Origin: Futiania mangrovi | Lineage (GTDB): Bacteria > Pseudomonadota > Alphaproteobacteria > Futianiales > Futianiaceae | Assembly: GCF_024158125.1 (NCBI RefSeq) | Contig: NZ_JAMZFT010000001.1 | Span: 372,001-436,000 of the forward strand | Length of the DNA: 64,000 nucleotides | Reading direction: 5' to 3' | The notes under the pieces: generated by a model | What the model was told of the DNA's origin: nothing | What the model saw: the letters and a program-made list of their open reading frames with translations, nothing else | The model's database searches: none | Part shown: positions 13,491 to 29,861 of the stretch, piece by piece | Numbering within the stretch: the stretch's first letter is position 1 | How the letters are laid out: every line of letters starts with the position of its first letter | Translations under genes and position numbers: made by a program

Positions 13491-13654
13491 GGGCACTCGT
13501 CCATTAGTTGTTGCAAGACATGGCTACCTCGAACGTCACGCGAAGTAAATCACTCCTCCACCTCAGAAAGCCGACCTCCACCTTCGATTGCCCGCTGCGA
13601 CGCCCTTCCTCACCATGTAACGTCATGTCATGATGCAACCTCAAGGAGATCGCC

Positions 13655-13855
13655 ATGGCAGTGCAGTCGCGCGTGTTACCTGAATGGCCGGAGTGGATGA
13701 GCGAGGAAACCGCCGCCCGCTACATGGACACGTCCCAGAACACCCTCAACTACTGGCGGGCGCACGGGAAAGGCCCTGCGTTTAAACGCATCGGGCAGAG
13801 AATGGTGCGCTATCAGAAGGCGGAACTCGACGCCTTTATGGAGGCGCAGGGATGA
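13655..13855 (+). CDS. HTH_17/excisionase-type DNA-binding protein, 66 aa
   Basis: MerR-like winged helix of the excisionase/HTH_17 type: WMSEETAARYMDTSQNTLNY, then WRAHGKGPAFKRIGQRMVRY, then QKAELDAFMEAQG. A good ribosome-binding site (AAGGAG) lies seven bases before the ATG. The stop overlaps the next gene (ATGA). Such small proteins act as excisionases (Xis) or as transcription regulators of integrated elements. It is the only clear Xis candidate in element A. Confidence 0.82.
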   Translation: MAVQSRVLPEWPEWMSEETAARYMDTSQNTLNYWRAHGKGPAFKRIGQRMVRYQKAELDAFMEAQG

Positions 13856-15045
13856 CCACGTTCCGCGAAAGACAGGATGAGACCGACTTCTTCTGGGAAC
13901 AGGACGAATTGCTTCGGACCTATCGCGGGGTCGTGAAAAAGATCGTGCCTCGCGCGCAGCACATGGCTCGCAAGCATCCGCGCCTCCAGAAGGAAATCTC
14001 GGAATCGACACTGCGGAAGGCGATCAGCGGCGATCACGTCTGGGAACCTATCGCGCAGCTTCTGGCTGAGTTGCGGCGTGAGGTGGCACGCGATCCGCGT
14101 CCGGCTTGCGAACCGCCAGAGATCCCGGAAACCATCGACGCATTCCGCAAGGTGGCGCTCGAATATGCGCCAAACACCTGGTGGTATCGTGCCCTTGCTC
14201 TGGATGACCTCTGCAAGCCGAGTTCGTTCCAGACCTGGATGTCGCGCGGTGAGCCGAAAGAATGGCCTGCGGTCAGGGAGCGTGCCGTTGCATGGCGTTT
14301 GCGCGTCATGTCCGCACTCGATCGCTGGGAACGGTGCGCCCGCGAGCAGTTCGACCGTTTCGAGATGCTCGATACCTGGGTTAAGGACGTTCTCGACGCC
14401 AGGGGCGAAGTCGCGGCCTTGCAGGAGTTCAAGCGCCTGCGGGACTACGAGACAATCTCCTATCACATGTGCTTCGATCCGGCGAACCCTGAACGGCCTC
14501 AGTTCGAGTTCCGTCACCGCAAGGACGAGAGCGAGGACGCGGCGGCGCTCAAGAAGCTGGCCGATGCAGGTTTTCCGCGCTACCGCGCTGACGACCCGAA
14601 ACCGGAAACCTGCGAAGTCGTCAGGACGTTCCAGAACTTTGTCTCGGACGATTTCCGCTGGGAATGGTCCTCGCAGGTGATCGTTGAGCGGACGCTGCGT
14701 TGGGACGCATGGACGCGCGGCATGGCGCGCACGGACAGGTTGCTCAAGGTTCGCGTCAAAGTGCCGTCGTCCCTGGCCGTCGAAGGCGAGACCATTGAAC
14801 AGGACCGCCGCCGCGTCTGGATCGAACGCAAGGCGGAATGGTACTACGAGTTCTCGCCCTACGTCTGGCGGTGGCGGGACGTTGATGAGCACGACATTCC
14901 CGGCGGGGCCGATGCACGGGACGAGGCAATGAGGCGCGCGGGCCTGGATGCTGAGGGGCGTGAGCCTGTTATTGACGGCTACCTTCTGGACTGCATCCCG
15001 CCTATCGAGAAAATCGAACCTGGGCGGGTTTACACCGTCGAATGA
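13852..15045 (+). CDS. Unknown protein, 397 aa, coupled to HTH_17 gene
   Basis: Large acidic and basic mixed protein, rich in Trp (for example NTWWYRALAL, WEWSSQVIVERTLRWDAW, YVWRWRDVDEHD). No domain I recognise. It overlaps the HTH_17 gene by four bases and is followed directly by a terminator. The N-terminal part (KKIVPRAQHMARKHPRLQKE, then ISESTLRKAISGD) resembles a DNA-binding helical region. In this position many phage-plasmids carry a replication initiator, so that is a possibility, but there is no motif to prove it. Confidence 0.65.
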   Translation: MTTFRERQDETDFFWEQDELLRTYRGVVKKIVPRAQHMARKHPRLQKEISESTLRKAISGDHVWEPIAQLLAELRREVARDPRPACEPPEIPETIDAFRKVALEYAPNTWWYRALALDDLCKPSSFQTWMSRGEPKEWPAVRERAVAWRLRVMSALDRWERCAREQFDRFEMLDTWVKDVLDARGEVAALQEFKRLRDYETISYHMCFDPANPERPQFEFRHRKDESEDAAALKKLADAGFPRYRADDPKPETCEVVRTFQNFVSDDFRWEWSSQVIVERTLRWDAWTRGMARTDRLLKVRVKVPSSLAVEGETIEQDRRRVWIERKAEWYYEFSPYVWRWRDVDEHDIPGGADARDEAMRRAGLDAEGREPVIDGYLLDCIPPIEKIEPGRVYTVE

Positions 15046-15048
15046 AAG

Positions 15049-15074
15049 AAGGCCGGCTTGTCGCCGGCCTTTTT
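15049..15074 (+). terminator. Rho-independent terminator
   Basis: Nine-base stem aaggccggc / gccggcctt with a five-base loop, followed by T residues (71-74). It starts three bases after the stop of the 397-aa gene. The A-run on the other side makes it possibly bidirectional, serving the leftward gene ending at 15094 as well. Confidence 0.88.
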
Positions 15075-15093
15075 CGTTTCATGGGTTAGGCAA

Positions 15094-15291
15094 TCAGGCG
15101 AAGGAGGTGCTTGCCGCCGTGCCCTGCGCAAGACGGGCATTGTAGCGCAGCACGGCAAGGGTGCCCATCGCGGCGCGGCGGAAGGACCAGCGGATCAGTT
15201 CGCGGGCATTCTGCGGGTCACGTTCGCGCGCCATCACGTCTTCGATCACCTGGTCGATATGGCGAAGGTCTTCGGCAAGTCCGGGGTTCAT
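15094..15291 (-). CDS. Hypothetical protein, 65 aa
   Basis: Small helical protein (LAEDLRHIDQVIEDVMARER, then DPQNARELIRWSFRRAA). The ATG at 15291 has GGAG eight bases upstream on its strand. No family recognised. It is transcribed leftward from the repeat-rich region 15390-15625, whose palindromes could be its operators. Confidence 0.55.
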   Translation of the reverse strand: MNPGLAEDLRHIDQVIEDVMARERDPQNARELIRWSFRRAAMGTLAVLRYNARLAQGTAASTSFA

Positions 15292-15392
15292 GGTCGGGTC
15301 TCCGTTCTGATGCGCGTCGGGCGCGGTTGATGCTTTGCATCATATCGCCCAGGTGCGGCATGGCTCGACCAAGGATGAAGGTTACTCCTGGA

Positions 15393-15405
15393 ATAACTCG
15401 GTTAT
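15393..15405. promoter_or_regulatory. Palindrome ataac-tcg-gttat (copy 2)
   Basis: Same palindrome as at 6974-6988 and 17331-17343, in the opposite orientation at the centre (tcg rather than cga). It lies about 100 bases upstream of the leftward 65-aa gene. Confidence 0.55.
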
Positions 15406-15421
15406 GCAGGGCGGGCGTTCA

Positions 15422-15438
15422 GGATAACTGGCTTATCC
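15422..15438. promoter_or_regulatory. Palindrome ggataa-ctggc-ttatcc (variant copy)
   Basis: Perfect six-base half-sites with a five-base centre. The inner part ataac-tgg-cttat resembles the ATAAC/GTTAT set. It lies 29 bases after copy 2, as expected for a paired operator. Confidence 0.45.
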
Positions 15439-15463
15439 AGTGCTATCGCTGCTGCGCTCAATA

Positions 15464-15624
15464 GCGCGCGCGTGCATATGCGAAAAAAAATGATGATGAT
15501 TGCGGCGAAACTCATCATCATCATTTTTTTGTTCATATGCGTGTGCGCGCGTTCTGGTGCAGCATTCTGGTTTCGACGCCTCGGGATCATCATCATTTTT
15601 TTTCGCATACACATGCGCGCGTGC
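15464..15624. repeat. Three-armed repeat: GC/CATATGCG-A8-(ATG)4 module
   Basis: Arm 1 (15464-15500) reads a cgcgcg stretch, then catatgcg, a run of eight A and atgatgatgat. Arm 3 (15586-15624) is its reverse complement, identical over atgcg-A8-tgatgatgat. Arm 2 (15511-15549) is a third, imperfect inverted copy. Arms 1 and 2 can form a long hairpin with a short loop, and arms 1 and 3 an alternative one. No good gene is inside. The structure could be a partition or replication site, a transcription-blocking hairpin or a binding-site cluster. Confidence 0.7.
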
Positions 15625-15633
15625 AGATAGCCG

Positions 15634-15882
15634 TCATTCCTGAGCATAAACGCCCACGGCGTTCAGGATCGGCACTTTTGGAAAGCGGTCCTGCCGTCGC
15701 TGAAAGGCGATGAGCGTCACCTGCGCGAGATCGTCCTTGCTGATGCGTGCATGGCCAGCTTCTGCAAGCGCCGTGCAAACATGGAAGTAGAAGGCGACCT
15801 TTCCCATGTCCTCTGTCACCTCGTCGCCGATCTGCTCGGCCAGCTTCCGCAGCGGCAGGCTGATTGTCATTTGCTCGTCCAT
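15634..15882 (-). CDS. Hypothetical protein, 82 aa
   Basis: Small helical acidic protein (ISLPLRKLAEQIGDEVTEDM, then GKVAFYFHVCTALAEAGHAR). The start ATG 15882 is chosen because GGAGG lies five bases upstream; an ATG at 15894 would add four residues. The middle (HARISKDDLAQVTLIAFQRR) may be a helix-turn-helix, which would make it a candidate for binding the nearby repeats. No family recognised. Confidence 0.5.
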   Translation of the reverse strand: MDEQMTISLPLRKLAEQIGDEVTEDMGKVAFYFHVCTALAEAGHARISKDDLAQVTLIAFQRRQDRFPKVPILNAVGVYAQE

Positions 15883-15966
15883 TGCATCCTCCATCGTCGA
15901 ACCGACGATACAGGGCAGCGCGTTCTGCCGCGACCGATCCTTCAGGAGAGGGCGTGACCACCCAAA

Positions 15967-16022
15967 ATGTCAGCCTTGGTGACGTATCTCGCGAGCGCGG
16001 TATGTCAGCCTTGGTGACGTAT
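15967..16022. repeat. 21-bp direct repeat, two copies
   Basis: The 21-base unit tgtcagccttggtgacgtat with a leading a occurs at 15967-15987 and 16002-16022, so one copy per 35 bases. Each contains gtca...tgac half-sites. It lies upstream of the leftward 82-aa gene and of the rightward small-gene cluster. Likely a protein-binding iteron pair; with only two copies it is not a CRISPR. Confidence 0.65.
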
Positions 16023-16331
16023 TCTGCGCCCATCGACGAAAACCGCGTTCAGCGCGTCAGCGAAGGCGGTTCGTGCCTCTGCCCTACATCGACGCCCAAA
16101 CGCGCAAGACGCCGCCTCACGCCTCAGCTCTGCCGCGCTCTGCACCATGCGCCGCGCATGTCGTCGCCGTCGTCCTGCATCGCGCCCCGTCGGTCGCGGT
16201 CAAGCATCGGTCAAACTGATGGCTGCGCGCGGTCAACGGCTTGATGGTGCAGACGTTCCACCTTGATTGATCATCAGTTCGCGGCGCTCCACCTTCGATC
16301 TCGGTCGGATCGCCCAAAGTGAGGTTGTATC
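16023..16331. other. Non-coding stretch between divergent small genes
   Basis: No convincing gene. Open frames here lack ribosome-binding sites. The stretch holds the space between the leftward 82-aa gene and the rightward cluster starting at 16365, so it probably contains the promoters of that cluster. Confidence 0.4.
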
Positions 16332-16334
16332 GTG

Positions 16335-16367
16335 CAAGGGACTGACAACGCTAGGAGAAGTCCCTTG
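16335..16367 (+). promoter_or_regulatory. Hairpin enclosing the ribosome-binding site of the 61-aa gene
   Basis: A perfect nine-base inverted repeat, caagggact (16335-16343) and agtcccttg (16359-16367), encloses a 15-base loop that contains AGGAG. The 3' arm ends in the TTG start codon. The transcript would expose the AGGAG in the loop but pair the start codon, suggesting control of translation. Confidence 0.5.
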
Positions 16368-16550
16368 AAGAAGCCCAAACCTGCTCCAAAGGCAGACGAC
16401 CGCCTCGCCGCGCTCCACGCCCAAGGCCTCGACGTGACAGGCATTGCCGACCGCGACGGCACGCCTCTGGTTCAGTGGCGCAAGCCGCCGACCGAAGCCG
16501 AGCGCGCGCAAGCCAACCTGATCCTGCCGGGAGCGCTGCACGATGCTTGA
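16365..16550 (+). CDS. Hypothetical protein, 61 aa (TTG start)
   Basis: Short basic protein (KKPKPAPKADDRLAALHAQG, then LDVTGIADRDGTPLVQWRKP). TTG at 16365 is chosen because AGGAG lies about seven bases upstream. GTG at 16332 has no such site. The stop overlaps the next gene start (16543). First of a chain of small overlapping genes. Confidence 0.5.
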   Translation: MKKPKPAPKADDRLAALHAQGLDVTGIADRDGTPLVQWRKPPTEAERAQANLILPGALHDA

Positions 16551-16749
16551 CGCCGCAACTCTCGTGGACGTTCGGCGCACTGACTGCGCCATCACTTTCT
16601 TCTGGTCTGACCAACCCACCGGCTACCAGCGCAAGGTGGCCGAGGACGCGAACCCATCGAACGGCCTGCGCGTCGGCCATTCCTGGCCGGGACCGCGTGA
16701 CGAAGGCGCTCCCGGCGTATACCGGATTACCGGAGGCAGGCCGTTTTGA
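16543..16749 (+). CDS. Hypothetical protein, 68 aa
   Basis: Compact protein with beta-like pattern (VRRTDCAITFFWSDQPTGYQ, then KVAEDANPSNGLRVGHSWPG). The ATG lies inside the end of the previous gene (eight-base overlap). No family recognised. Confidence 0.55.
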   Translation: MLDAATLVDVRRTDCAITFFWSDQPTGYQRKVAEDANPSNGLRVGHSWPGPRDEGAPGVYRITGGRPF

Positions 16750-16979
16750 CAAAGCGCACGGTCAAGACCTTCGAGGAACGCCCCCTCGACCACATCATCG
16801 AGAGCGAGACGGTGGACTATGACAACCGCTCCTTCGCCTTCTCGGTGTTCGGCCACGAAGACCCGGCCATCGTCACCGTGATCATCGGGAAGGAGCAGCG
16901 CACCCTGTCCCGTGATGCCCACACCGAAGGCTTCACCCGCCTGCTCGACGCCATCAAGCGCGTGCCGCCCGCACGCTGA
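16746..16979 (+). CDS. Hypothetical protein, 77 aa (TTG start)
   Basis: Small protein with alternating hydrophobic strands (SFAFSVFGHEDPAIVTVIIG) and a C-terminal helix (GFTRLLDAIKRVPPAR). The start TTG at 16746 overlaps the previous stop by four bases. An AGGC tract lies upstream. No family recognised. Confidence 0.5.
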   Translation: MTKRTVKTFEERPLDHIIESETVDYDNRSFAFSVFGHEDPAIVTVIIGKEQRTLSRDAHTEGFTRLLDAIKRVPPAR

Positions 16980-16990
16980 AAGGACCGAAG

Positions 16991-17326
16991 ATGAAACACC
17001 CGAACCCATATGCCGACTTCTGGCTTGCCAATACCCACGCCTGGACGGTCGAACCTGGCGAGGAGGCTCAGGTCTTTTCCTCAGGCGAGGACGCGCTGAC
17101 CCCTTGGGCGACTGACGACGGCACGCTGCTCCTCGTCTACACATCGACCCGGAACGAACTCGTCGCCCTGCACAACGCCTCCGTGGGCGGTGCGGATGCC
17201 CTGCGCGCCTGCGATCTGCCTGGCTGGCCGTGGCGCATCCTGCTCGACGATCTGCCGCCCGCTGCATCGGCCAACCGCGCGCCGTTCACGTTCCCGGTCA
17301 AGCAGCAATCAGACGAAGCGGCCTGA
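16991..17326 (+). CDS. Hypothetical protein, 111 aa
   Basis: Protein of 111 residues rich in Trp and acidic residues (NPYADFWLANTHAWTVEPGE). AAAGGA lies about seven bases before the ATG. Same strand and compact spacing (11 bases) as the small genes before it. A palindrome copy follows its stop by five bases. No family recognised. Confidence 0.6.
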   Translation: MKHPNPYADFWLANTHAWTVEPGEEAQVFSSGEDALTPWATDDGTLLLVYTSTRNELVALHNASVGGADALRACDLPGWPWRILLDDLPPAASANRAPFTFPVKQQSDEAA

Positions 17327-17330
17327 CGGA

Positions 17331-17343
17331 ATAACCGAGTTAT
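17331..17343. promoter_or_regulatory. Palindrome ataac-cga-gttat (copy 3)
   Basis: Identical in its 13-base core to 6975-6987. It sits between the stop of the 111-aa gene and the AAGGAG of the next gene, the usual place for an operator over a promoter or an RNA element in the leader. Confidence 0.55.
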
Positions 17344-17360
17344 ACAAGGAGCAAACCGCC

Positions 17361-17498
17361 ATGATGAACAATCACCTGGAACTTCGATCTCGGTCGCGTT
17401 CCGCGTCGATGCTTGCGATGATCAGGGCGAGCGGTTTTGCTCTCTCCTCCTTGGTTGCAGTCAGTCAGGCGGGTCTCTGGAAACGGAGGCCCGTCTGA
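17361..17498 (+). CDS. Small protein, 45 aa
   Basis: Short protein with a Ser/Arg stretch and a hydrophobic segment (ASGFALSSLVAVSQAGLW). A good AAGGAG lies ten bases upstream of ATG 17361. The stop overlaps the next ATG as ATGC-style coupling (17498). It follows palindrome copy 3 directly, so it may be a leader or regulated first gene. Confidence 0.45.
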   Translation: MMNNHLELRSRSRSASMLAMIRASGFALSSLVAVSQAGLWKRRPV

Positions 17499-17920
17499 TG
17501 CCGTATGCTTCTGGCCGCAAGACGGGCAAGCCCCGCAAGTCGAAGGACGAGTTGTCCGAACGCATGGACGCCAAGCTGCGCGAACTGCGCCTGCACGCGG
17601 GCAACGAAGAATTCGACCCCGTGGTGCTTATGGCGATCATCGGCGCGGAGGCCTACGACAAGGGCGAAACCGTCGTGGCACTGGCCGCGATGAAGGAAGT
17701 CGCCCAGTATGTCCGACCCAAGCTGTCGTCCGTGAACTTCGAGGGCAAGGTCGAAATTGAAGCGGTCGACTCCCGCATCAAGACAATCGAGATGGCACGC
17801 CGCATGGGCGTTCCCGTTGATGGGATGATCCAGCAGCTTGCCAAAGAACGCGGCATGACCCTGGCCGAGGCGTGGGCAGCAGTTGACAACATCGCCATCC
17901 CCTCCCTGACGGTCGAATGA
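17498..17920 (+). CDS. Hypothetical protein, 140 aa
   Basis: Basic N-terminus (GRKTGKPRKSKDELSERMDA) then a helical body (EAYDKGETVVALAAMKEVAQ, then IKTIEMARRMGVPVDGMIQQ). It resembles in general style small terminase-associated or DNA-binding phage proteins, but no domain is certain. It is coupled at both ends (ATG at the previous stop; stop shared with a 23-codon ORF). Confidence 0.6.
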   Translation: MPYASGRKTGKPRKSKDELSERMDAKLRELRLHAGNEEFDPVVLMAIIGAEAYDKGETVVALAAMKEVAQYVRPKLSSVNFEGKVEIEAVDSRIKTIEMARRMGVPVDGMIQQLAKERGMTLAEAWAAVDNIAIPSLTVE

Positions 17921-17991
17921 TGAACGCGGACCTGGACGCAGCCCTCGCGCTCGCGATGATGGTCGCACTCGTCTGCATCGCTCTGCGGTAA
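17920..17991 (+). CDS. Possible 23-aa membrane peptide
   Basis: The ATG at 17920 overlaps the previous TGA and opens a 23-codon frame dominated by hydrophobic residues (LALAMMVALVCIAL). Translational coupling and composition suggest a real membrane microprotein, but the length makes chance likely. Confidence 0.3.
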   Translation: MNADLDAALALAMMVALVCIALR

Positions 17992-18378
17992 GCGCCCCAG
18001 CCAGCTAGGCGAGCGCCGGGCGTCTCTGGGTTCGCCCCTACCGTCGCCCCCGAACACCCCAAACCTCACTGGCTGACGCGCTCTGCGAAGGTAGGCCCGT
18101 GATCGTGGTCGCAAGTGATCATCCATCAAGACGGTTCGCCTGCGATTGCCGATGGTTGGCACCACGAGCGCCACGAGATTGATGGCGTCTTGACCGTAAC
18201 ACCTCATTTTCCCGCCCGTTGCCAGTCGTGGACCTCAAACACCGGATGGTCGTCTCGGGCTGTCTCGCCGCATCGTCGCGCCAGCCCAAGCACCGCTCAA
18301 GGACAGGTCTGGGCTTGGGTTGCGGTTGCTCCTTCCTGCGACGAGCCGGGCCTGTCCGCCCAACCAGAGGAATGAAGA
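17992..18378. other. Gene-poor stretch
   Basis: About 390 bases without a convincing gene. Open frames on both strands lack ribosome-binding sites or recognisable protein. It contains an inverted gcccaagc/gcttgggc-type pair around 18289-18327. The next gene has a ribosome-binding site at its end (GAGGAATGAAG). Confidence 0.4.
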
Positions 18379-18801
18379 ATGCCGGAACCGCTTTACATTG
18401 CCAAATCCGAAGCCGACCGAGACTCCGACTTGTTCAAGCGGACGGTCGCGAAGGCAAACGAACTCGGCGTTGACGTGGTGCACGTCAAGCCGGAAGACAC
18501 GATCCTGACCCGTGATCAGGCGCGCGACCGCGACACCTACATGAAGGCCCGCAAGATGGCCGAAGCCATCGGCCAGACGGTGCAGGTCGTTGACAACCCG
18601 ACCGACGACGGCACGCAGAAGCAGGTGATCCAGGCGACGCACCACCTGACCGACGACGCGCTCTATATCCGGGCGGGTGCTGTCGATCCGCGCACCTACC
18701 AGCGCCTGACGACGCAGGCACGCGCCGAGATGAAGCGGATCGTGCCTGTCAGCACCTGGGACGATGCGCCCGAAGACATTCGCGCGGCACTGACGGCCTG
18801 A
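18379..18801 (+). CDS. Hypothetical protein, 140 aa
   Basis: Charged alpha/beta protein (PLYIAKSEADRDSDLFKRTV, then AKANELGVDVVHVKPEDTIL). AGAGGAATGAAG precedes the ATG. Same strand as and four bases before the next gene, so probably co-transcribed. No family recognised. Confidence 0.6.
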   Translation: MPEPLYIAKSEADRDSDLFKRTVAKANELGVDVVHVKPEDTILTRDQARDRDTYMKARKMAEAIGQTVQVVDNPTDDGTQKQVIQATHHLTDDALYIRAGAVDPRTYQRLTTQARAEMKRIVPVSTWDDAPEDIRAALTA

Positions 18802-18805
18802 CACT

Positions 18806-19522
18806 GTGTCGGTGAACCGCTTCACGACCAACAAGAGCGACCACGCGCAGCAGCATATGTGGGCTGCCGTGGTGTTGATGGCCGTCAACGACGCTTTCAC
18901 TGTCATGCGGGACCGGACAGAACTCGACCGGGCAGAGGCCCTGCGCTTCTTGCTCGCGCCTCATGGGGCCTGGGCCAAGTCGCGGGAACATGTCTGCTCA
19001 TGTGCAGGTGCAGAACCCGACCGTCTGCACACCTGGGCGCTCGAAGTCATGGCCGGAAAGGTGGTTTTTGGCACCCCTAAGGAAGTGCAGGCATCGCGCG
19101 ACCTTTGGACCGCCATGAACGCGCCGCGCGAGAAGCCGCAGCCAACCGCGAAGGCCGAGATCGCTCCTGCACCCGACGCAGGGGCGATTCCGCTCCCCTC
19201 CATCGTCGATACCTTTGGCGTCTTCGACGTGCGAGACGACGGCACGCTCGTCTGCCCGAACTCTCGCCCGCTGACCGGCCCGTCCTTGCCGCGCGAAAAC
19301 TCCCAGCAAGGGCGCGTCCTGAAAGCCCTGACGATGCAACGGGGCGGCACCCTCAACAGCCTCCGCAAGGCCTACGCGAAGTGGGAACAGGTCGCGGTCG
19401 AGTTGTGCCGCCGCCTCGACCTGGAACTGATCTACCGTCACGATGGGCATGAGGTCGATGGCATCGTTGATGCCGATACCAAGGTCTTTGTCAGACGGCG
19501 GCTCCTTTCACCCGCTGCATGA
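18806..19522 (+). CDS. Hypothetical protein, 238 aa (GTG start)
   Basis: Protein of 238 residues. The N-terminal helix region (QHMWAAVVLMAVNDAFTVMR) and a CSCAG motif come first, then a Pro/Ala-rich linker, and a C-terminal segment with a winged-helix look (QGRVLKALTMQRGGTLNSLR, then KAYAKWEQVAVELCRRLDLE). The GTG at 18806 lies four bases after the previous stop. Its end overlaps the convergent integrase by 32 bases. Function unknown; a regulator or structural protein are both possible. Confidence 0.6.
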   Translation: MSVNRFTTNKSDHAQQHMWAAVVLMAVNDAFTVMRDRTELDRAEALRFLLAPHGAWAKSREHVCSCAGAEPDRLHTWALEVMAGKVVFGTPKEVQASRDLWTAMNAPREKPQPTAKAEIAPAPDAGAIPLPSIVDTFGVFDVRDDGTLVCPNSRPLTGPSLPRENSQQGRVLKALTMQRGGTLNSLRKAYAKWEQVAVELCRRLDLELIYRHDGHEVDGIVDADTKVFVRRRLLSPAA

Positions 19523-20370
19523 TCTCGTCTGCGACCGCCTGAACGGCGTTCCGCACGTCAGGGGTCACGACGTAGGAGTCGGTCATGTTGCCCGCAGCGT
19601 GACCCATCTGCGCCGCGCGCTGCGCATGGGGGATACCGATCTCGGTCGCGATGGAATCCCATTCGTTGCGCGTGTCCTTCGGACGCCATGTCTGCGTCTT
19701 GTAAGTCAGGGTCGGCAGAGACTGGAGGTAGCCCTTCGACGAGTGCGACGGGAAGACCCAGAACCCACCCGACTTGATCTCGCGCAGGCGCTTCAACTGG
19801 CGCACTGTCCAGGTCGAGATCGCCACATCACGCGGCAGGCCGCGCTTCGGGTCGCGGACGTGAATCTTCGCGCCGTCGAGGTCAACGTCCTGCCACCGGA
19901 GCGAGAGCACCTCGCCTTTGCGCAGGCCCGTCAGCAGCAGAACCTTGAGCGCGCTCTTGGAATAGAGGTCGTCGATCCGATCAACCTCGCGCCACCAATG
20001 GAACACGTCCTTGATCCGCTTCGGGTTGCGGATCACCGTCGACCAACCCTTCGGGAGCGAGGTCGTCGGAACTCGCGTGATCACCTCACGCCGCTGGGCA
20101 TCGTGCATCACAGCCGAGACGACGCGCATCAGCGCCTTCGCTGTCACCACGCTCGAACGAGACAGCCGCCTCCACGTTGTCAGCACGTCCTGCGGGGTGA
20201 TCTCGACGGTCGCGCGCTCGAACCAGTCGGGGACATGGACCTTCAAGGTGCGCTCATACTCAGTCAAGGTCGAGGACTTTGCCTTGGAGCCGAAGTGACG
20301 GTACTCGTGCCACGTCTGCGCGAACGTCTCGACCTGACCCGGCTGCGGGCGGGGATCGTCGCGCGAGATA
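19491..20370 (-). pseudogene. Tyrosine recombinase (integrase A), 5'-truncated
   Basis: C-terminal catalytic domain with LLTGLRKGEVLSLRW (first catalytic Arg), the box II region KDTRNEWDSIATEIGI and MGHAAGNMTDSYV (His and Tyr nucleophile). The core-binding domain is also present: FAQTWHEYRHFGSKAKSSTL, then TEYERTLKVHVPDWF. The N-terminal arm-binding part is missing. The frame is open to 20381, where TAG closes it, with no good start codon; the only early one is TTG 20267 inside the core-binding domain. Exactly there the sequence runs into the other integrase on the opposite strand. Probably inactive. Confidence 0.85.
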
Positions 20371-20385
20371 CGCGCCTTGCGCTAC
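20360..20385. other. Fusion point of the two truncated integrase genes
   Basis: Leftward integrase A and rightward integrase B meet head to head within about 20 bases, leaving no room for promoters, start codons or an att site. The likely breakpoint is near cgcgccttgcgctac (20371-20385). It marks the border between element A and element B. Confidence 0.7.
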
Positions 20386-21534
20386 CGCCGGCACGGGCGC
20401 ACGCACAAGCTGACGGTGGGGCCTTATCCGGCGATCGAACTAGCCGAAGCGCGCGAAGAGGCGCGGGCGGCGCTGCGCGACGTGGACAGGGGCGAAGACC
20501 CGAAGCTGAAGCGCGAGGCGGCAGGCATTGCCCGGCGCACGGCCCCGGAAACTTACCGCGAGGCCGTCGAAGACTACCACACGCGCTATCAGGTGGGGCA
20601 GCGGGGTAACGCCACCGCGGGCGAGGTTCTGCGCGCGTTGCTCAAGGAAGGCGGCCTGCGCGTATCCAAGGACGGCCACGAAAGGATCGTGCACCCCAAA
20701 TGGATCAACCGACCCGTTGCGGACATAGACGCGCGGGCGATCCGCAAGCGGCTGGAAGAAATCCGCGACGGCAGGGAAGGGGAAGAGCCGCGCCCCTACA
20801 TGGCGAACCGCGCGTTCGCGTACTGGTCCCGGTTCTTTGCATGGGCGGCCGAGCCGGGAATCGAGAAGGTGCCTCTATCGCCCATGATCGGGCTCAAGAA
20901 GCCCTGGGACGGCGAGGAAAGCCGCTCGCGCGTCTTCAATGACGACGAACTGAAGGCGCTTTGGCAAAGCTGCGACAAGCTGCCCGCGCACCGGGGCGCA
21001 TTCGTCCGCCTTCTCATGCTGACCGGCAAACGCAAGCGTGCGCTCGCGGGCATGCGTTGGGCGGACGTTGACGAGGCGGGAATATGGACCCCGCCGACCG
21101 ATCCGAGGCGACGGGCGCGGACTAAGCGACAGCACCCCATTACCCTGCCGCAGCGGACGCGCGAGATACTGGCGAGCCTGCCGCGCGATCCCGAAAACCC
21201 CTTCGTATTCGTGGGCAGGCACAAGGGGCGGCCGCTCTACCCCGGTTCCGACCTTCAAGAGGCGGTGCAGGAAGCATCAGGGGTGCCGGACTTCTATTTC
21301 CACGCCCTTCGCCACACTGTCGAGACACGGCTTGCCGTCTTGAAGATACCGCCACACGTCCGCGACGCGGCTCTGGACCATGTTCCGGCACGCGGGGCGG
21401 GTGCGGGATACGATCACCACGACTATCGCGAGGAAGTGGCCGGGGCCCTCGAAAAGTGGTCTCGCGAAGTGGGGCGGCTGATCGGCGATGAGCCAGGCAA
21501 AGTGATCGATCTCTTTGCGGAGGGCGGGCGATGA
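20374..21534 (+). pseudogene. P4-like tyrosine recombinase (integrase B), 5'-truncated
   Basis: About 386 residues of a P4/DUF4102-type integrase. It begins abruptly inside the N-terminal domain at ALRYRRHGRTHKLTVGPYPA, where complete proteins have about 50 more residues. Catalytic features are present: TGKRKRALAGMRWADVD (Arg), FHALRHTVETRL (H-x-L-R) and LDHVPARGAGAGYDHHDY (His, Tyr). TTG 20377 is the only possible start and has no ribosome-binding site. Integrases of this group insert at tRNA genes, which fits the att sites. The stop overlaps the next gene (ATGA). Confidence 0.85.
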
Positions 21535-22196
21535 ACTCTACAAAGAAACGACCGGACCGATCCAAAGATTTAAATATGAAGGGTGGTGGAATCGAGCGAA
21601 TCCTTCGGAAAGCTGTCGGTCTTCCGGAATCTACGAATTCGGGTGATAAATTTGAAAGATTAAGAATTGCCGTAGCTCGAATTGATATTGCTTCATCTAG
21701 ATACGGAAAATTTCCAAACCCTAAGGAAACGCAATCTCAAATAAGAGAATTAATTGATGGCATGCAGAGCACAATTAAGATGCTCAGTGCGATGGATTCA
21801 GAGGTTATTATTTCGTGTGACGCAAGGGATCCATTTAAGGGTCAACATTGGGCTGGATTAACTGGAACAACATCGATAATGCTTATTCGAATGGAGACAA
21901 TTCTTAAGGAAATTTCGGAGCGAGTTGATGCACAAGTAGATATTCAATTTTCTGGACGCAATCGCCCTCCAAACTTGAGGGCCCGATTCATCGCGTTTGA
22001 GCTGGCTCAATACCTTAAGGATGAAACTGGCAAAATGCCTGGGTTCACGTGGAATGCGGAAAAGGGAGTGGCGTATGGCCAGTATGGCAAGACGCTTCAT
22101 CAACTCTTCCACCACTTGGACGTCCAGGCGGATCTGCGCGCGCCCGCAAAATGGGCACTAGAACACCTCCGAAAGCAGGAGACTTCTGATACCTAA
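21531..22196 (+). CDS. AT-rich hypothetical protein, 221 aa
   Basis: Soluble protein of 221 residues, no family recognised. It has a long helical middle (SQIRELIDGMQSTIKMLSAM) and conserved-looking C-terminal part (NAEKGVAYGQYGKTLHQLFH). Its base and codon use (many A/T third positions) differs sharply from the flanking GC-rich genes, so it was acquired separately. The ATG overlaps the integrase B stop by four bases, so it was transcribed with the integrase. It may be cargo next to att, a common place for defence or addiction genes, but nothing in the sequence shows its action. Confidence 0.65.
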   Translation: MNSTKKRPDRSKDLNMKGGGIERILRKAVGLPESTNSGDKFERLRIAVARIDIASSRYGKFPNPKETQSQIRELIDGMQSTIKMLSAMDSEVIISCDARDPFKGQHWAGLTGTTSIMLIRMETILKEISERVDAQVDIQFSGRNRPPNLRARFIAFELAQYLKDETGKMPGFTWNAEKGVAYGQYGKTLHQLFHHLDVQADLRAPAKWALEHLRKQETSDT

Positions 22197-22266
22197 ACAG
22201 GTCCTGGGGGGAACCCTACGCTCCGCATAGAAACGCTTCAGAGCGGCTTGAGATGCGGAGAAAGAG

Positions 22267-22473
22267 ATGACCGATAGTCTTTCGGACCACGCTTTGGTCA
22301 GCGCCCACCGCGTACGTGAGTTGTTGGGCGGGATCTCGCGGGCAACGCTCTTCCGGTGGCGTCAGTCTGTCCCGGACTTCCCGCCTGCCGTACGGATTGA
22401 AGGTCGGACCTACTACCGTGTGCGGGATGTAGCCGCTTGGCTGCAGTTGCGGCAACGCCGCATAGGCCAATGA
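22267..22473 (+). CDS. AlpA-family regulator/excisionase
   Basis: 68-residue MerR-like HTH: LVSAHRVRELLGGISRATLF, then RWRQSVPDFPPAVRIEGRTY, then YRVRDVAAWLQ, the AlpA pattern of P4-like satellites where it controls integrase expression and excision. A GAGAAAGAG tract precedes the ATG. Its stop overlaps the next gene (ATGA). It starts a rightward operon with the primase. Confidence 0.88.
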   Translation: MTDSLSDHALVSAHRVRELLGGISRATLFRWRQSVPDFPPAVRIEGRTYYRVRDVAAWLQLRQRRIGQ

Positions 22474-22667
22474 GCTGGAACCAAAACGCCCCGCCCGCGA
22501 TGGCGCGCGGAACGGGGCGGGATAGGAAAGCAGCGGCGGCGCTTCCAGAGCCCGATAATATCCAACGCCTTACCGAGCGGCAAGCGCGCAGGCTGGTCCG
22601 CACGCGCCCGCTGTCCTGGCCCATCGCCCGCCCCATCGCGCGCATCTGTTTCGGGGAGGGCCGGTGA
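22470..22667 (+). CDS. Small basic hypothetical protein, 65 aa
   Basis: Arg-rich small protein (RGTGRDRKAAAALPEPDNIQ, then RLTERQARRLVRTRPLSWPI). ATG at 22470 overlaps the AlpA stop, and its TGA overlaps the next ATG (TGATG). Of the kind often found between alpA and the primase in satellites. No family recognised. Confidence 0.55.
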   Translation: MSWNQNAPPAMARGTGRDRKAAAALPEPDNIQRLTERQARRLVRTRPLSWPIARPIARICFGEGR

Positions 22668-23044
22668 TGGCTGCCCTCGACGATCAGACGCGCGACCGGC
22701 TGGCGAAGCTGCTCGGCATGCTGGGCAGCGACCACGACGGCGAACGGGCCGCCGCGGGGCTCAAGGCCGACCGTCTCGTCAAGAAGATCGGCGCGAGTTG
22801 GTACGACATCCTCAAGCCACAGGAGACGACCAGGGCGGCCGACCCCGTCTGGCGTGATCCGCGCGACTGGCGCGAGGCATTGGCCTTGTGCCTGAGGTAC
22901 TCGGAGTGGCTTAACGATTGGGAAGACGAGTTCTGTCGCTCCGTCTGGAAACGCCGGACCATCACCGAGCGGCAGGAGTTTTACGTCTGGACGGCGCTCG
23001 AGAAGGTCCGCGCCGCCGTAACCACGGGCGGGGGTGACGCATGA
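22667..23044 (+). CDS. Hypothetical protein, 125 aa, upstream of primase
   Basis: Helical protein (DQTRDRLAKLLGMLGSDHDG, then ERAAAGLKADRLVKKIGASW) with conserved-looking W residues. This N-terminal pattern (LAKLLGMLGSDHDGERAAAA) is common in proteins encoded next to RepA/primase genes of proteobacterial prophages. The stop overlaps the primase ATG by four bases. GTG at 22664 is an alternative start. Confidence 0.65.
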   Translation: MAALDDQTRDRLAKLLGMLGSDHDGERAAAGLKADRLVKKIGASWYDILKPQETTRAADPVWRDPRDWREALALCLRYSEWLNDWEDEFCRSVWKRRTITERQEFYVWTALEKVRAAVTTGGGDA

Positions 23045-24807
23045 GGGACCTTGCGCGCCACATGGAAGCCGTCGCCCGCCATCTCCTCGGGGAGCCGAAT
23101 GCGCGCCTGTCGAGCAAGACCGAGCTGCGCTACGGCACCCACGGGAGCCTGAGCGTCGACCTGAAGAAGGGCACCTACTACGACAACGAGGCGGGCAAAG
23201 GCGGCGGCGTGCTGCACCTCATCGGCCGCGAGACCGGCCATCGCAACGGCGCGGCCTTCGATTGGCTGCGCAACGAACTGGGCATCGAGATCGGCGAGAC
23301 GGAGCAACAGAGCCGCATCGTTGCCGAGTACGACTACCGCGCCGCCGACGGCGACCTCCTGTTTCAGGTGGTACGGTTCGAGCCGAAGGCCTTCCTTCAG
23401 CGCAGGCCGGCCGGCGGGGGCGGCTGGATCTGGAACTTGAAAGGCATCGACCTTGTGCCGTACCGCCTTCCCCAGATCCTCGAGGGCGGCGACCGGACCA
23501 TCTACATCGCCGAGGGCGAGAAGGACGTTCACGCGCTCGAAGGGCTCGGCCTGCTGGCGACATGCAATCCGGGCGGTGCGGGCAAATGGCGGGAAGGATT
23601 CTCGCAATACCTGGCCGGCGCCGACGTCGTCATCCTGCCGGACAATGACGAGGCCGGGCGCGATCACGCGGAGAAGGTGGCCGCATCGCTCCGGGGCAAG
23701 GCTGCCCGCGTCCGCATCGTGCATCTGCCGGGGCTGCAGGAGAAGGGCGATGCCGCCGACTGGATCGCGGCGGGCGGGACGGCCGAAGAACTGGACCGGC
23801 TGGCCGAGGCAGAGGCAGAGGCAGAGGGGCCCCGCGTGCGGTTCCAACTGCTGACCATCGACCGCCTCGGCCTCAGCACCGCGCCCGACTACACCATGAA
23901 AGGCATGCTGCCGCGCGAGGGCATGGCGGTTTTCTGGGGGCATCACTCGACGGGCAAGTCGTTCCTTCAGCTCGACATGGCGATGAGTATCGCACGGGGC
24001 GCCGAGTGGCGCGGACATCGTGTCCGGCAGGGCGCTGTCGTCTACATCGCCGGAGAAGGGCAGCACGGCTTCCGGCGGCGGATCGAAGCCTACCGCCGCA
24101 TGCGGATGGCGCACGATGAGACCGCCCCGCCCTTCTACCTGATGCCCGAACCGCTCGACCTGATCGATGCGCACGGCCAGCTGATCGCCGACATCCGCGC
24201 CCAGGGCGTCACGCCCGCGGTGGTGGTGCTCGACACCCTCAACCGGACCCTGCGCGGCTCGGAGAACAAGCCCGAGGACATGGCCGCCTACATCGCGGCG
24301 TCGGATGCAATCCGCGACACCTTCGGATGCCTCGTCTCGATTGTGCATCACTGCGGCGTTGATGGTGACAGGCCGCGCGGACACACGAGCCTCAGCGCAG
24401 CTGCCGACGCCATCTTCGCCGTCAAGGATCACGGCAAGGTGAAGGCGCTCACTGCAGAGAAGCAGAAGGACGGCCCGATTGGCGAGGCGATGCACTTCCG
24501 CCTCGATGAGGTCGACCTGGGCGAAGACGACGAAGGCGACCCGATCAGCTCATGTGTCGTCGAACACGTCGAGACGCAGGCCGAAACCTTCACCGGCCCG
24601 AAGCTCACCCGCAACCAGGACACCATGCTGATGATCCTCGACGGCGCGGGGCCGGGCGGCTTGAGCACCGAGGAATGGAATGGACGCGCCCGCATCGCCG
24701 GACTGGCGGCAAAGCGCGCGGCCGATCTGTGGGACCTGCGCAATGCCCTGAAGGACAAGAGCCTCGTCTACTGCTCGGGAGATCTCTGGCATGTGCGTCG
24801 GGACTGA
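23041..24807 (+). CDS. Toprim primase / RepA-like AAA helicase fusion
   Basis: Protein of 588 residues. A zinc-finger-less N-terminal primase-like region (TYYDNEAGKGGGVLHLIG) is followed by a Toprim domain with IYIAEGEKDVHALEGLGLLA (catalytic Glu) and VVILPDNDEAGRDHAEKVA (DxD). A RecA-like ATPase of RepA/AAA_25 type follows (Walker A GHHSTGKSF at about residue 300; Walker B region VVVLDTLN). A short C-terminal winged helix ends it. It should prime and unwind the element's own origin, probably the repeat region just downstream. It ends the alpA operon. Confidence 0.9.
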   Translation: MRDLARHMEAVARHLLGEPNARLSSKTELRYGTHGSLSVDLKKGTYYDNEAGKGGGVLHLIGRETGHRNGAAFDWLRNELGIEIGETEQQSRIVAEYDYRAADGDLLFQVVRFEPKAFLQRRPAGGGGWIWNLKGIDLVPYRLPQILEGGDRTIYIAEGEKDVHALEGLGLLATCNPGGAGKWREGFSQYLAGADVVILPDNDEAGRDHAEKVAASLRGKAARVRIVHLPGLQEKGDAADWIAAGGTAEELDRLAEAEAEAEGPRVRFQLLTIDRLGLSTAPDYTMKGMLPREGMAVFWGHHSTGKSFLQLDMAMSIARGAEWRGHRVRQGAVVYIAGEGQHGFRRRIEAYRRMRMAHDETAPPFYLMPEPLDLIDAHGQLIADIRAQGVTPAVVVLDTLNRTLRGSENKPEDMAAYIAASDAIRDTFGCLVSIVHHCGVDGDRPRGHTSLSAAADAIFAVKDHGKVKALTAEKQKDGPIGEAMHFRLDEVDLGEDDEGDPISSCVVEHVETQAETFTGPKLTRNQDTMLMILDGAGPGGLSTEEWNGRARIAGLAAKRAADLWDLRNALKDKSLVYCSGDLWHVRRD

Positions 24808-25390
24808 CGTCCGCCGGGAAGTGTACGGAGGTACGGGTCCTAAAGGACCCCGTACCGTACATCCGTATCCCTCACAGGGCGTATCCGTATCGTATCCGTA
24901 CCGTACATCCGTATCCCTTAGCAGGCAGATGCAAGGCCGGACTGGGGGGAGGGACCCAGCCCCCTTCCGTGTTCGATGCTCCTAGGGCAAACTGCACGCG
25001 CCGCGCCCCCATGGGGGGGAGGGCGGCGAAAAAGTCTGGAGGGGCAGAAGGCGGAACCGCGCCCCCCCCCGTGTTTTTTTCTGACCGCGAAATTAGGGAG
25101 GGGGTCTGAGGAGGTGCGCAGTCGACTTCATTCATGCTCCAGGATCGGATTCTTGCTGCATTTCAGACTGGTTGGCTTTCTTTCCCAAAAACTTGAATAT
25201 TTTTGAAGTTAACCTGTCTGAATTTTGCTTAATGTTCATTGCGGCGATCGAGTGGTTTTTATGCTAGTGGCGTCATCTGGGAAGAACGTGCCAAGTGCGC
25301 ACAAGCGTATTAATGATTCTTCGAGAGCATACTGTTCAAGCTACCGAAAACACGCCCTGACCGAAAACCCTGCCCGAGCAGATCGCCGCG
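24808..25390. other. Putative replication origin: hairpin, iterons and AT-rich tract
   Basis: Gene-free region after the primase. It starts with an imperfect hairpin (24823-24860; gtacgggtcc / ggaccccgtac around taaa). Two copies of a 22-base unit built on cgtaccgtac and atccgtatccct follow at 24851-24872 and 24897-24918, with extra gtatccgta units between them. Then come C/G homopolymer tracts (24940-25075) and an AT-rich stretch (about 25140-25350). Iterons plus an AT-rich tract beside a primase-helicase gene is the layout of plasmid and satellite origins. Confidence 0.5.
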
Positions 25391-25546
25391 GTGCGCCACA
25401 CACTCACCGACATGGGAACGGCTACGCCGGAGCAGATCGCCCGCCGTTTCCTCCGCGCCCGCACGACCGCCGTGCAGTCGCTGCTCGAAAGCCTCGCGGC
25501 ACTCGGGCAGGCCGAGGTGCAGGAGGACGGCCGCTACGCCGCGTGA
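25391..25546 (+). CDS. Small winged-helix-type protein or fragment, 51 aa
   Basis: The frame VRHTLTDMGTATPEQIARRF then LRARTTAVQSLLESLAALGQ then AEVQEDGRYAA is a typical HTH/wing of small replicon proteins. The start is uncertain: GTG 25391 or ATG 25412, with no clear ribosome-binding site. The upstream DNA changes composition abruptly, so this may be the 3' remnant of a longer gene. Four bases separate it from the following ATG. Confidence 0.4.
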   Translation: MRHTLTDMGTATPEQIARRFLRARTTAVQSLLESLAALGQAEVQEDGRYAA

Positions 25547-25561
25547 GGAATGGAGGCGCAG

Positions 25562-26233
25562 ATGATCGACGAGATCGCACGCAACATCGACCCGAGGCTC
25601 AACAACGTGAATGGCCGCGTTTTCTATTCGGGCCGCGCGGCCTTCGAAGGCCAGGGCCGGGTCTATGTGCTGGGGTACAACCCCGGCGGCGCCCCGGACG
25701 AACACGAAGGAGAGACGATTTCCGCTCACACACGCTACGTGCTGGATGAAACGCCTGCGTGCTGGTCCGCCTATTGCAACGATAGCTGGATGGGGAAGGC
25801 GCCCGGGCAAAAGCCCCTCCAGAGGCGAGTGCGGCATTTGCTGAATGCGCTGGGCCTCGACCCGCGAGAGACACCCAGCAGCAATCTGATCTTCAAGCGG
25901 TCGTCAAACAGTTCGGCCTTCACAACGGCTGAGAAGAAGGAATTGGCGGAGGCCTGCTGGCCTGTGCACGATGCAGTCCTGCGCCTGCTGGCCCCTTCGG
26001 CAATCATCTGCCTCGGCCATGAAGCCGGAGACCAAGTACGCCGCCGCGTCGGTGCGACCCAGAAACTCGACACCTTTACCGAGCGCAACGGCCGTGAATG
26101 GAGCAGCCATGCCTATAAAGCTCCAAGTGGTTTGCTGGTGTTCTCGCTCACTCATCCAGGCCGCGCGGACTGGACCGCTGCCCCATCCGACCCCTCCCCC
26201 TTCGTCCGGGATATGCTGCGACAGACAGCCTGA
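25562..26233 (+). CDS. Uracil-DNA glycosylase-superfamily-like protein
   Basis: Protein of 223 residues. The pattern GRVYVLGYNPGGAPD (about residue 32-46), a middle strand PSAIICLGHEAGDQVRRRV, and C-terminal LVFSLTHPGRADW (about residue 192-204) corresponds to the UDG-like fold (GxNPG near the N-terminus, HPS/HPG near the C-terminus). The ATG at 25562 is chosen for its GGAGG five bases upstream; the ATG at 25550 is too close to its GAGG. It may excise damaged or modified bases, or act in defence; neither is shown. It is followed by the Mrr-like gene. Confidence 0.65.
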   Translation: MIDEIARNIDPRLNNVNGRVFYSGRAAFEGQGRVYVLGYNPGGAPDEHEGETISAHTRYVLDETPACWSAYCNDSWMGKAPGQKPLQRRVRHLLNALGLDPRETPSSNLIFKRSSNSSAFTTAEKKELAEACWPVHDAVLRLLAPSAIICLGHEAGDQVRRRVGATQKLDTFTERNGREWSSHAYKAPSGLLVFSLTHPGRADWTAAPSDPSPFVRDMLRQTA

Positions 26234-26280
26234 CGGGCGGGAATGATGCAGAACTCAACCGTGGCCAAGGAGTGCGCCGA

Positions 26281-27279
26281 ATGACGATGTGGATGGTCCG
26301 CGCGGAAGTGGGCGGCAGGCTCTTTCAGGCCTTTGTCGAGCGCAGCCTCGTTGCCGTTGGCGGTGCGGAATTCGGGGACTTGAGTACGCTCACGACGCGC
26401 GAGCAAGTGCTTGCCCGCGTGAAGGCCCACCGGCCGGAGTGGAAGCCCCAAACCCAGATCGTTTCGGCGGGTGTGCTGTTCCGCATGCTGCGCCAGATCG
26501 AGGAAGGCGACCGCGTCGTCACCTACGACCCACAGCGCCGGGTCTACCGGATCGGTATCATCGCCGGCCCCTACCGCCACGACATGAACTTCGACGGGGA
26601 GCACCCGGCCGTCCGCCCGGTGCGCTGGGAGAGCCAGGAAATCCCACGCGACACGCTATCGACCAGTACAAAGAACTCACTGGGCTCGACGCTGGCGGTG
26701 TTTCGCGTGCCCGACGATGCCGCGGCAGACGTCCTTCGCGCGCTGCGGAACGAGCCGGAGGCAGCAGCCAACGTCGCGGAGACGGAGGAAGTCGAAGAGC
26801 AGTTCCTGCTTCACGACATCGAAGAGCGCAGCGTCGAGTTCATCAAGGACCGAATCGTCCGGCTGGACTGGAACGAGATGCAGGAGCTTGTGGCGGGCTT
26901 GCTACGCGCGATGGGCTACAAGACCCGCGTGTCGCCCAACGGCCCGGATCGAGGCAAGGACATCGTTGCCTCGCCCGATGGTTTCGGCTTCGAGGACCCG
27001 CGTATCGTCGTCGAAGTGAAGCACCGGCCTGGCACCCAGATGGGGGCCCCGCAAATCCGCGGCTTCCTGGGCGGCCGGCATCCCGGCGACAAGGGCCTTT
27101 ACGTCAGCACCGGCGGCTTCTCCAAGGACGCCCAATACGAGGCCGAGCGGGCAAACATCCCGATCACGCTCATGGACCTGGACGAGCTCGTGAAGGCGAT
27201 CCTCGACAACTACGACGCAATGGACACCGAAACCCAGCGGCTCGTCCCACTCAAGCGGATCTTCTGGCCGGTAGCGTGA
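26281..27279 (+). CDS. Mrr-like restriction endonuclease
   Basis: Protein of 332 residues. The C-terminal Mrr_cat PD-(D/E)xK domain shows LDWNEMQELVAGLLRAMGY, GPDRGKDIV (D223, D227) and VVEVKHR (E245, K247), followed by GAPQIRGFLGG, the usual signature of type IV Mrr enzymes that cut methylated DNA. The N-terminal part (about 1-110) is a small beta-rich module that may read DNA (YDPQRRVYRIGIIAGPYRHD). The ATG at 26281 has AAGGAG eight bases upstream. As this island also encodes two DNA methylases, its specificity must tolerate their marks. Confidence 0.85.
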   Translation: MTMWMVRAEVGGRLFQAFVERSLVAVGGAEFGDLSTLTTREQVLARVKAHRPEWKPQTQIVSAGVLFRMLRQIEEGDRVVTYDPQRRVYRIGIIAGPYRHDMNFDGEHPAVRPVRWESQEIPRDTLSTSTKNSLGSTLAVFRVPDDAAADVLRALRNEPEAAANVAETEEVEEQFLLHDIEERSVEFIKDRIVRLDWNEMQELVAGLLRAMGYKTRVSPNGPDRGKDIVASPDGFGFEDPRIVVEVKHRPGTQMGAPQIRGFLGGRHPGDKGLYVSTGGFSKDAQYEAERANIPITLMDLDELVKAILDNYDAMDTETQRLVPLKRIFWPVA

Positions 27280-27442
27280 AGGGGCTTGGGGTGCGCCATT
27301 CCGGCTTAAAGGCCGGCTCTATGGGGTGGTACTTGTGACTCGGTAGATACTGTTTGGATGGACCACCTCCTCGATGAGGGCTAGCCTTGTTGCTGCCTGG
27401 GAGCGAAAATGGTCATATGGCGAGAAAATAGGATAACCCGTG

Positions 27443-28534
27443 ATGTCTCAGGAAGCAGACGAATTAGAAGAGCTAAACGATCCAGAATTTACCGAGGACG
27501 ATACGTCGGAGACACCCCCGAGCGATATTGTAGCGTACAATGAACTTCGCTCGTGTGCTGACTTGGCGCGAATGACAGAAGACGGGACCATTGAGCTGCA
27601 GCCGGACTTTCAAAGAGACGTTGTTTGGAATTCCGCCGAGCAATCGCGATTTATCGATTCCTTGGTAAAGCAGCTTCCGATTCCAAGTATGTGTTTTGCT
27701 CTGGATCACACTAAAGATACATGGATCGTAATTGACGGTCTTCAGAGAATGACTTCGATCGTTAATTTCCTCACGGGTGGAGACTGGCGACTATCGCGCC
27801 TAGATGACATTGACGCCCGCCTTTCCGGCAAGCTCGCTGCTTCATTCAAGACGGGTAAAGGCGAAGAGAAGCGAATTTACGATCGGGTCCAAAATAAGAC
27901 GCTGCCCATTACGGTGCTTCGATGCGAATTTTCGAAGCGATCTCACATGGAGTACCTGTTTACGGTTTTTCACAGGCTGAATTCGGGTGGTGCAAAGCTG
28001 AACAACCAGGAAATACGGAATTGTATCTTTAGTGGACCGTTCAACAATCTCTTGCGAGACCTTGATCAACTTGAGAGTTGGCGAAGGTTTAATCAAATGC
28101 AACCGGGTAAAAATTACCGCTTTGTAAAGCAAGAGGTAATACTAAGGATATTTGCGTTTGCAGAGGAGCTGAGCAGTTACTCGGGCCAGATTGGCAAGTT
28201 TTTAAACGACTATATGCACCCTCGGCGACACCTGAGGGCTGAAGAAATCGAAACAAAGCGCCAGCTCTTTACACAAACCTGCGATGCCATCGATAGGATC
28301 TATCCCGACGGCCCCGGTGACCGCTTCCCGACTGCTGTAACGGAGGCCCTATTTGTCGGTGTGATGAAAAACATTGATCACGTGGCGGCCCTGTCAGGCG
28401 ATGAGTTGGCGGCACGCTTCGCCGAGCTAAGGGCCTCTAAGCCTTTCAGTGAAGAGGATCTATCTGAGGGGCTTTCGAAAAGGGACAAGGTCACCCGGCG
28501 CATCGAAAAGGCGGTTGATATTTTCGCGCCATGA
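27443..28534 (+). CDS. DUF262 (ParB/Srx-fold, GmrSD_N-like) protein
   Basis: Protein of 363 residues. The N-terminal DUF262 domain shows PDFQRDVVWNSAEQSRFIDS (about residues 54-73), LPIPSMCF and WIVIDGLQRMTSI (D98-M103; the DGxQR motif), then YLFTVFHRLNSGGAKLNNQE. There is no recognisable C-terminal HNH (DUF1524), so it is the short form. ATG 27443 follows GTG 27440; a weak AGGATAACCC precedes it. It overlaps the HEPN gene by four bases (ATGA), so both proteins are made together. The family occurs in restriction of modified DNA and in toxin-antitoxin-like pairs. Confidence 0.85.
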   Translation: MSQEADELEELNDPEFTEDDTSETPPSDIVAYNELRSCADLARMTEDGTIELQPDFQRDVVWNSAEQSRFIDSLVKQLPIPSMCFALDHTKDTWIVIDGLQRMTSIVNFLTGGDWRLSRLDDIDARLSGKLAASFKTGKGEEKRIYDRVQNKTLPITVLRCEFSKRSHMEYLFTVFHRLNSGGAKLNNQEIRNCIFSGPFNNLLRDLDQLESWRRFNQMQPGKNYRFVKQEVILRIFAFAEELSSYSGQIGKFLNDYMHPRRHLRAEEIETKRQLFTQTCDAIDRIYPDGPGDRFPTAVTEALFVGVMKNIDHVAALSGDELAARFAELRASKPFSEEDLSEGLSKRDKVTRRIEKAVDIFAP

Positions 28535-29780: not shown

Positions 29781-29861
29781 GGGCAACGCTCAATTCGTCC
29801 CTTGCACCACCGGGGCCGGCCACACATGACAACACCCTTGCAAGTGTGTCAGGTATGGAGC

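Follow-up and report, generated by a model that had tools for sequence, protein, structure and literature searches.

Head-to-head fusion of two truncated integrases within a tRNA-Thr(UGU) island of Futiania mangrovi

How do two integrase genes come to lie head to head in a chromosome, each without its own beginning? This question is raised by a locus of Futiania mangrovi, of which we analysed a stretch of 64,000 nucleotides (the window, to which all coordinates refer) and in which a leftward and a rightward tyrosine recombinase frame, IntA and IntB, belonging to two neighbouring elements A and B, meet within a few bases:

19491-20381, minus strand: IntA, tyrosine recombinase from which the N-terminal 119 residues (arm domain plus linker) are missing; its sequence is 95.3% identical to residues 120-415 of a Defluviimonas integrase
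20377-21534, plus strand: IntB, tyrosine recombinase lacking about 44-48 N-terminal arm-domain residues, as judged from Pfam and from alignments to relatives
20374-20384, no strand: fusion point, at which the homology of element A ends and that of IntB starts

The IntA frame is open from 20381 to 19494 and closed upstream by a TAG at 20384-20382; its first in-frame start, a TTG at 20267, lies within the core-binding domain. The IntB frame is open from 20338 to 21534, and its first possible start, TTG 20377, is located right at the fusion. Pfam recognised the central and catalytic domains of IntA (PF00589, E 1.6e-14) and no arm domain, although the arm profile PF13356 matches weakly even in the intact relative of IntA. 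IntB possesses the catalytic domain (PF00589, E 2.5e-12), and PF13356 was matched at profile positions 36-82 of 83 only. Compared to full-length relatives (about 20 aligned per protein), IntA lacks about 90-100 and IntB 44-48 N-terminal residues, and the close Defluviimonas relative fixes the exact loss of IntA at 119. A complete N-terminal arm-DNA-binding domain, which the relatives possess, is thus missing from both proteins. The DNA homology of element A ends at 20383 and the protein homology of IntB begins at about 20374-20383: the two either adjoin or share a few bases, with TGCGCT as a possible microhomology. Remnants of the missing integrase pieces were not found in the window, nor was the DNA lost from element A (513 bp) found in the surrounding 144 kb. 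The head-to-head fusion of two truncated integrases is real and not a chance arrangement. The original prediction had stated that the leftward integrase lacks its N-terminal domain, that the rightward one begins inside its own, that the two frames meet near the junction and that a stop codon at 20382-20384 closes the first frame, and it had proposed to count the missing residues by alignment to full-length homologues; all of this is borne out by our data.

Aligned catalytic residues of IntA are R154, K179, K235 (instead of H), R238, H261 and Y270. The lysine in the HxxR box is shared with G784, a relative from an intact subfamily, and on this comparison we count it as a trait of the subfamily and not as damage. 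The catalytic residues of IntB appear to be kept, judged from its own sequence. For the retained part of IntA, dN/dS relative to the Defluviimonas copy is 0.21, against 0.04-0.11 in four neighbouring genes; both truncated frames remain open, and decay following the truncation is not evident. These values and the open frames may fit a loss that is fairly recent, or mild relaxation, but do not decide the matter.

The fused genes lie inside an island whose ends are marked by a direct repeat of 47 bp (47/47 identical) at 6245-6291 and 32540-32586, which corresponds to the 3' half of a tRNA-Thr(UGU) gene plus one adjoining base. Three copies or parts of this tRNA gene are of importance here:

6245-6291, minus strand: displaced 3' half of tRNA-Thr(UGU), holding the core ATTTGTAAT (on the plus strand ATTACAAAT, ending at 6291)
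6371-6444, minus strand: whole tRNA-Thr(UGU) that element A carries, 74/74 identical to its Defluviimonas counterpart
32541-32616, minus strand: complete tRNA-Thr(UGU), with the second 47-bp repeat (32540-32586), supplied by element B

The island between the repeats measures 26.3 kb and contains the whole tRNA-Thr(UGU) at 6371-6444 as a second complete copy. A displaced tRNA fragment and a complete tRNA gene stand in the same orientation at the two ends, as is the case in genomic islands at tRNA genes. Neither the junction, the rest of the window nor the 80 kb on its left side yielded a third long (47-bp) copy of the core or att site, and searching the whole genome with the tRNA region returned no further long core copy. 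The lost internal att site was probably the 9-bp anticodon-loop core and not a third 47-bp repeat. The core of the tRNA-Thr carried by element A differs from the target core in one base (ACTTGTAAT vs ATTTGTAAT), a change that may keep its own integrase off it as a target. We also observed a second tandem pair resembling arm sites (TGCTTACCTCTTGCTTAC, 6180-6197) that lies outside the island, 47 bp to the left of its left core, and is oriented like the tRNA-side end of an element. The pair suggests that an older element X lies further left, its other end and its integrase being gone; no further core copy for such an element was found in the 80 kb left of the window.

The extent of element A can be read from an intact copy in another genus, Defluviimonas sp. 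WL0050 (G1071; NZ_JAOWKZ010000003.1), with an integrase of 415 aa that is 95.3% identical across all 296 retained residues of IntA. The following features belong to element A:

6292-20383, minus strand: element A, cut off at its integrase end; both ends 92-94% identical to the intact Defluviimonas element, the middle cargo different
6343-6361, minus strand: arm sites of element A, a pair that reads CAATCAAATACCGGTCAA on the minus strand and lies 52 bp inward of the core
11403-12545, plus strand: cargo, type II DNA methyltransferase (BstXI-type system)
12537-13496, minus strand: cargo, BstXI-family restriction endonuclease

DNA identity between the window and Defluviimonas is 94% over 6246-6908 and 91.6% over 13840-20383, where it stops at the fusion. 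In Defluviimonas, the element splits a tRNA-Thr(UGU) gene in the anticodon loop, with the 5' end of its integrase toward the host 5' half. The 5' half of the host tRNA-Thr is followed there by the core ATTTGTAAT and, after about 155 bp, by the integrase; then come the cargo, the whole tRNA-Thr and the arm pair, and 52 bp further on the core ATTTGTAAT again with the 3' half of the host gene. The left end in the window agrees with this layout, including the whole tRNA. Since the whole tRNA is identical in the two genomes while their host tRNA halves differ, it must travel with element A. The Defluviimonas layout further implies that element A spans 6292-20383 here and that the lost att site lay to the right of IntA. 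A more distant sister, the G784 element of 14.3 kb at a tRNA-Thr(UGU), has an integrase 43-46% identical to IntA (found in the family-level search) and largely the same gene order, at a polarity opposite to that of element A. Six-frame tblastx against G784 gave only noise, and plasmid searches with two genes of element A gave no matches.

Element B is likewise cut off at its integrase end; its features are:

20384-32539, plus strand: element B, with an AlpA-like gene, a primase-helicase and defence genes
22267-22473, plus strand: putative excisionase, AlpA/HTH_17-like (weak matches)
23041-24807, plus strand: primase-helicase; a related gene occurs in the G059 element, which has the same integrase type
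26272-27279, plus strand: cargo, Mrr-like nuclease (PDC-S02)
27440-29031, plus strand: cargo, PD-T4-2 A and B genes (two ORFs)
29862-32173, minus strand: cargo, Vsr, NaeI-family endonuclease and C5-cytosine methyltransferase (three ORFs)
32453-32474, plus strand: arm-site pair of element B, TGTTACCCCA twice with period 12, at the tRNA end, 66 bp from the tRNA-side repeat

Genomes of the same class yielded relatives of IntB at about 30-35% identity, none closer than about 35%; searches of genome contigs and viral contigs revealed no close relative, and matches on plasmids, all below 30% identity, suggest Alphaproteobacteria. Relatives with single elements, to which the prediction had looked, thus exist with a complete integrase for element A (Defluviimonas), and for element B only down to this distant level. 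Among the IntB relatives one layout recurs: the integrase lies 95-210 bp from the att copy distal to the tRNA, its 5' end faces that copy, and it reads toward the tRNA (G059, 47-bp repeat, tRNA-Thr; G262, 50 bp, tRNA-Pro; G147, 56 bp, tRNA-Thr; G058, tRNA-Lys; and G317, with a 44-bp repeat at which no tRNA was found). These relatives have tandem pairs of heptamers (period 11-12 bp) immediately ahead of the integrase and also at 50-90 bp from the core on the tRNA side; such pairs are probably arm-type integrase sites. The pair at 32453-32474, a motif pair not expected by chance in 64 kb, matches them, which shows that the tRNA end of element B is intact at the right and that its left att site and the front of IntB are lost.

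The polarity of element A in Defluviimonas and that of the IntB relatives together imply that both integrases once faced one internal core divergently. We therefore consider it highly probable that the composite island arose from elements A and B inserted divergently at a shared tRNA-Thr(UGU) core, and that the junction results from a later deletion. Element A would have split the tRNA-Thr gene by recombining at the anticodon-loop core ATTTGTAAT, its integrase toward the 5' half and its other end, bearing its own replacement tRNA-Thr, abutting the 3' half. Element B, extending to 32539, would have recombined at the same core and rebuilt the complete tRNA-Thr at 32541-32616, with IntB facing the shared core from the opposite side, so that the core lay between two divergent integrases. 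In either order of integration, the second element would have used a core that had tRNA sequence on just one of its sides. A deletion of about 0.75-0.87 kb, presumably a single event, could then have removed about 513 bp of element A (119 codons along with the promoter, the leader and arm-site DNA), the 9-bp core, and about 235-350 bp of element B (44-48 codons plus leader), the latter length being estimated from relatives; both integrases would thereby have lost their arm-binding parts, natural starts and promoters. The original prediction of two elements in tandem at one tRNA, with integrases facing away from a shared att site, fits the polarity of the Defluviimonas element and of the IntB relatives, and a deletion through that att site and both 5' ends accounts for the junction.

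Polarity also raises a difficulty for this model: most relatives of both integrases agree in polarity and would be arranged head to tail, and G784, the nearest relative of IntA but one, has the opposite polarity at the same tRNA. The common polarity of most relatives and the opposite polarity of the syntenic G784 had suggested an inversion of element A after a head-to-tail tandem integration. This candidate is ruled out because the Defluviimonas copy has the polarity of the window and the same ends. In an integrase tree the polarities are not cleanly separated, and closely related elements, such as A and its sister in G784, appear to have switched their integration polarity. Insertion of element B into IntA is likewise ruled out, because no remnant of the IntA 5' end was found beyond element B, either in the window or in the 144 kb around it.

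The discrepancy between two former elements and their present junction can have other explanations. On the one hand, the two elements may indeed have met at a shared core, with the gap produced in several steps, either by successive small deletions or by a third element gained and then lost. The older element X, which apparently left only its tRNA-side arm pair at 6180-6197, speaks for several rounds of insertion and loss at this site; the junction itself, however, bears neither foreign sequence nor an insertion-sequence scar, and the homologies of A and B abut within a few bases, so that we regard a stepwise gap as rather unlikely. On the other hand, the short integrases could be naturally arm-less and active. 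Both frames are open and retain the catalytic residues visible in the alignments, but the arm part is present in all full-length relatives, IntA has no start before the TTG within its core-binding domain, the first start of IntB is the TTG at the fusion, and both have lost the upstream DNA in which relatives hold their promoter and arm sites, which makes this reading extremely improbable. An assembly chimera, in which intact copies of A and B were wrongly joined, is very improbable as well: no repeat exists at the junction to drive a mis-join, the contig measures 1.45 Mb, PF13356 finds no other arm domain above its cut-off in the genome, and the missing 513 bp of element A do not occur within the 144 kb searched around the locus.

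The truncations should also affect excision. Besides IntA and IntB, a genome-wide search with PF00589 revealed two proteins only: one XerC-like, whose best NCBIfam match is XerC at a score below the curated cut-off of that model, and one XerD-like, as judged by its sequence. Because no complete non-Xer tyrosine recombinase was found in the genome, site-specific excision looks lost. Judging from these sequences, IntA and IntB should excise neither their own element nor the two together, and the composite island of anti-virus genes is probably no longer able to cut itself out. That the island is locked in the chromosome, as suggested, is therefore probable, and its excision by an integrase of this genome unlikely; the two remaining 47-bp repeats could still recombine at a low rate.

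Tandem integration and displaced fragments of both kinds are already known: among its 3919 islands, the Islander survey counted 125 tandem arrays (two or more), 2083 sites centred on the anticodon and 159 islands whose 5' fragments are displaced (PMC4383910), and elements using the 5' portion of a tRNA gene are cited as less frequent (PMC6563490). As in the Islander tandem islands, two elements here share one tRNA gene, a displaced fragment and a rebuilt tRNA mark the outer ends, and the core lies in the anticodon loop. In contrast to those arrays (PMC4383910), whose members each possess an integrase and a tRNA fragment of their own, our island has lost the internal site, and both of its integrases are broken. 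Fixation through loss of the att site or recombinase has been discussed as grounding, and in grounded (cryptic) prophages such a loss, of either or both, likewise fixes an element in the chromosome (PMC6379469). However, our locus differs from these in that a single junction of neighbouring elements saw the loss of two unrelated integrases, and in that the islands carry defence genes and no recognised phage structural genes. The Defluviimonas element resembles element A in its integrase, ends, whole tRNA-Thr and polarity in tRNA-Thr(UGU), but is a single element with a complete integrase and an intact att region, and no counterpart of the BstXI-type genes was detected in it.

The locus is a clear instance of a known process, the immobilisation of an island, with an unusual tRNA-carrying element, and provides a base-resolution view of how two mobile defence islands would become one fixed chromosomal block. 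Where neighbours share a core with their integrases divergent around it, one deletion can disable both. The intact copy of element A in a named genome makes the states before and after comparable and immobilisation testable. A shallow literature search returned no description of islands with both tRNA halves displaced and a whole tRNA carried, and the locus points to such islands, with a complete spare of the tRNA gene they break, as a class that has been little noted. It is quite possible that element A stands for alphaproteobacterial islands that recombine in the anticodon loop, displace both host tRNA halves and carry a whole replacement tRNA, and that can stack and then be fixed together by loss of the shared core.

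Several further observations concern element A and its relatives. Both displaced halves and a whole tRNA also occur at tRNA-Thr or tRNA-Leu regions with IntA relatives (G697, G725, G828, G875, G930, G863 and G719), in which, unlike in element A, the whole tRNA adjoins the 5' half. The arm motif pair of element A is found twice more internally (16197-16214 and 18179-18196), at positions conserved in G784 and Defluviimonas, and these internal copies may be regulatory. A module with glycosyltransferase, T5orf172 and HTH genes (7929-9482 and 9771-11266) is inverted in Defluviimonas relative to the window and G784. Finally, a cluster of inverted and direct repeats of 36-51 nt (ATCATCATCATTTTTTT...CGCGCG) at 15450-15621 is partly common to the Defluviimonas element.
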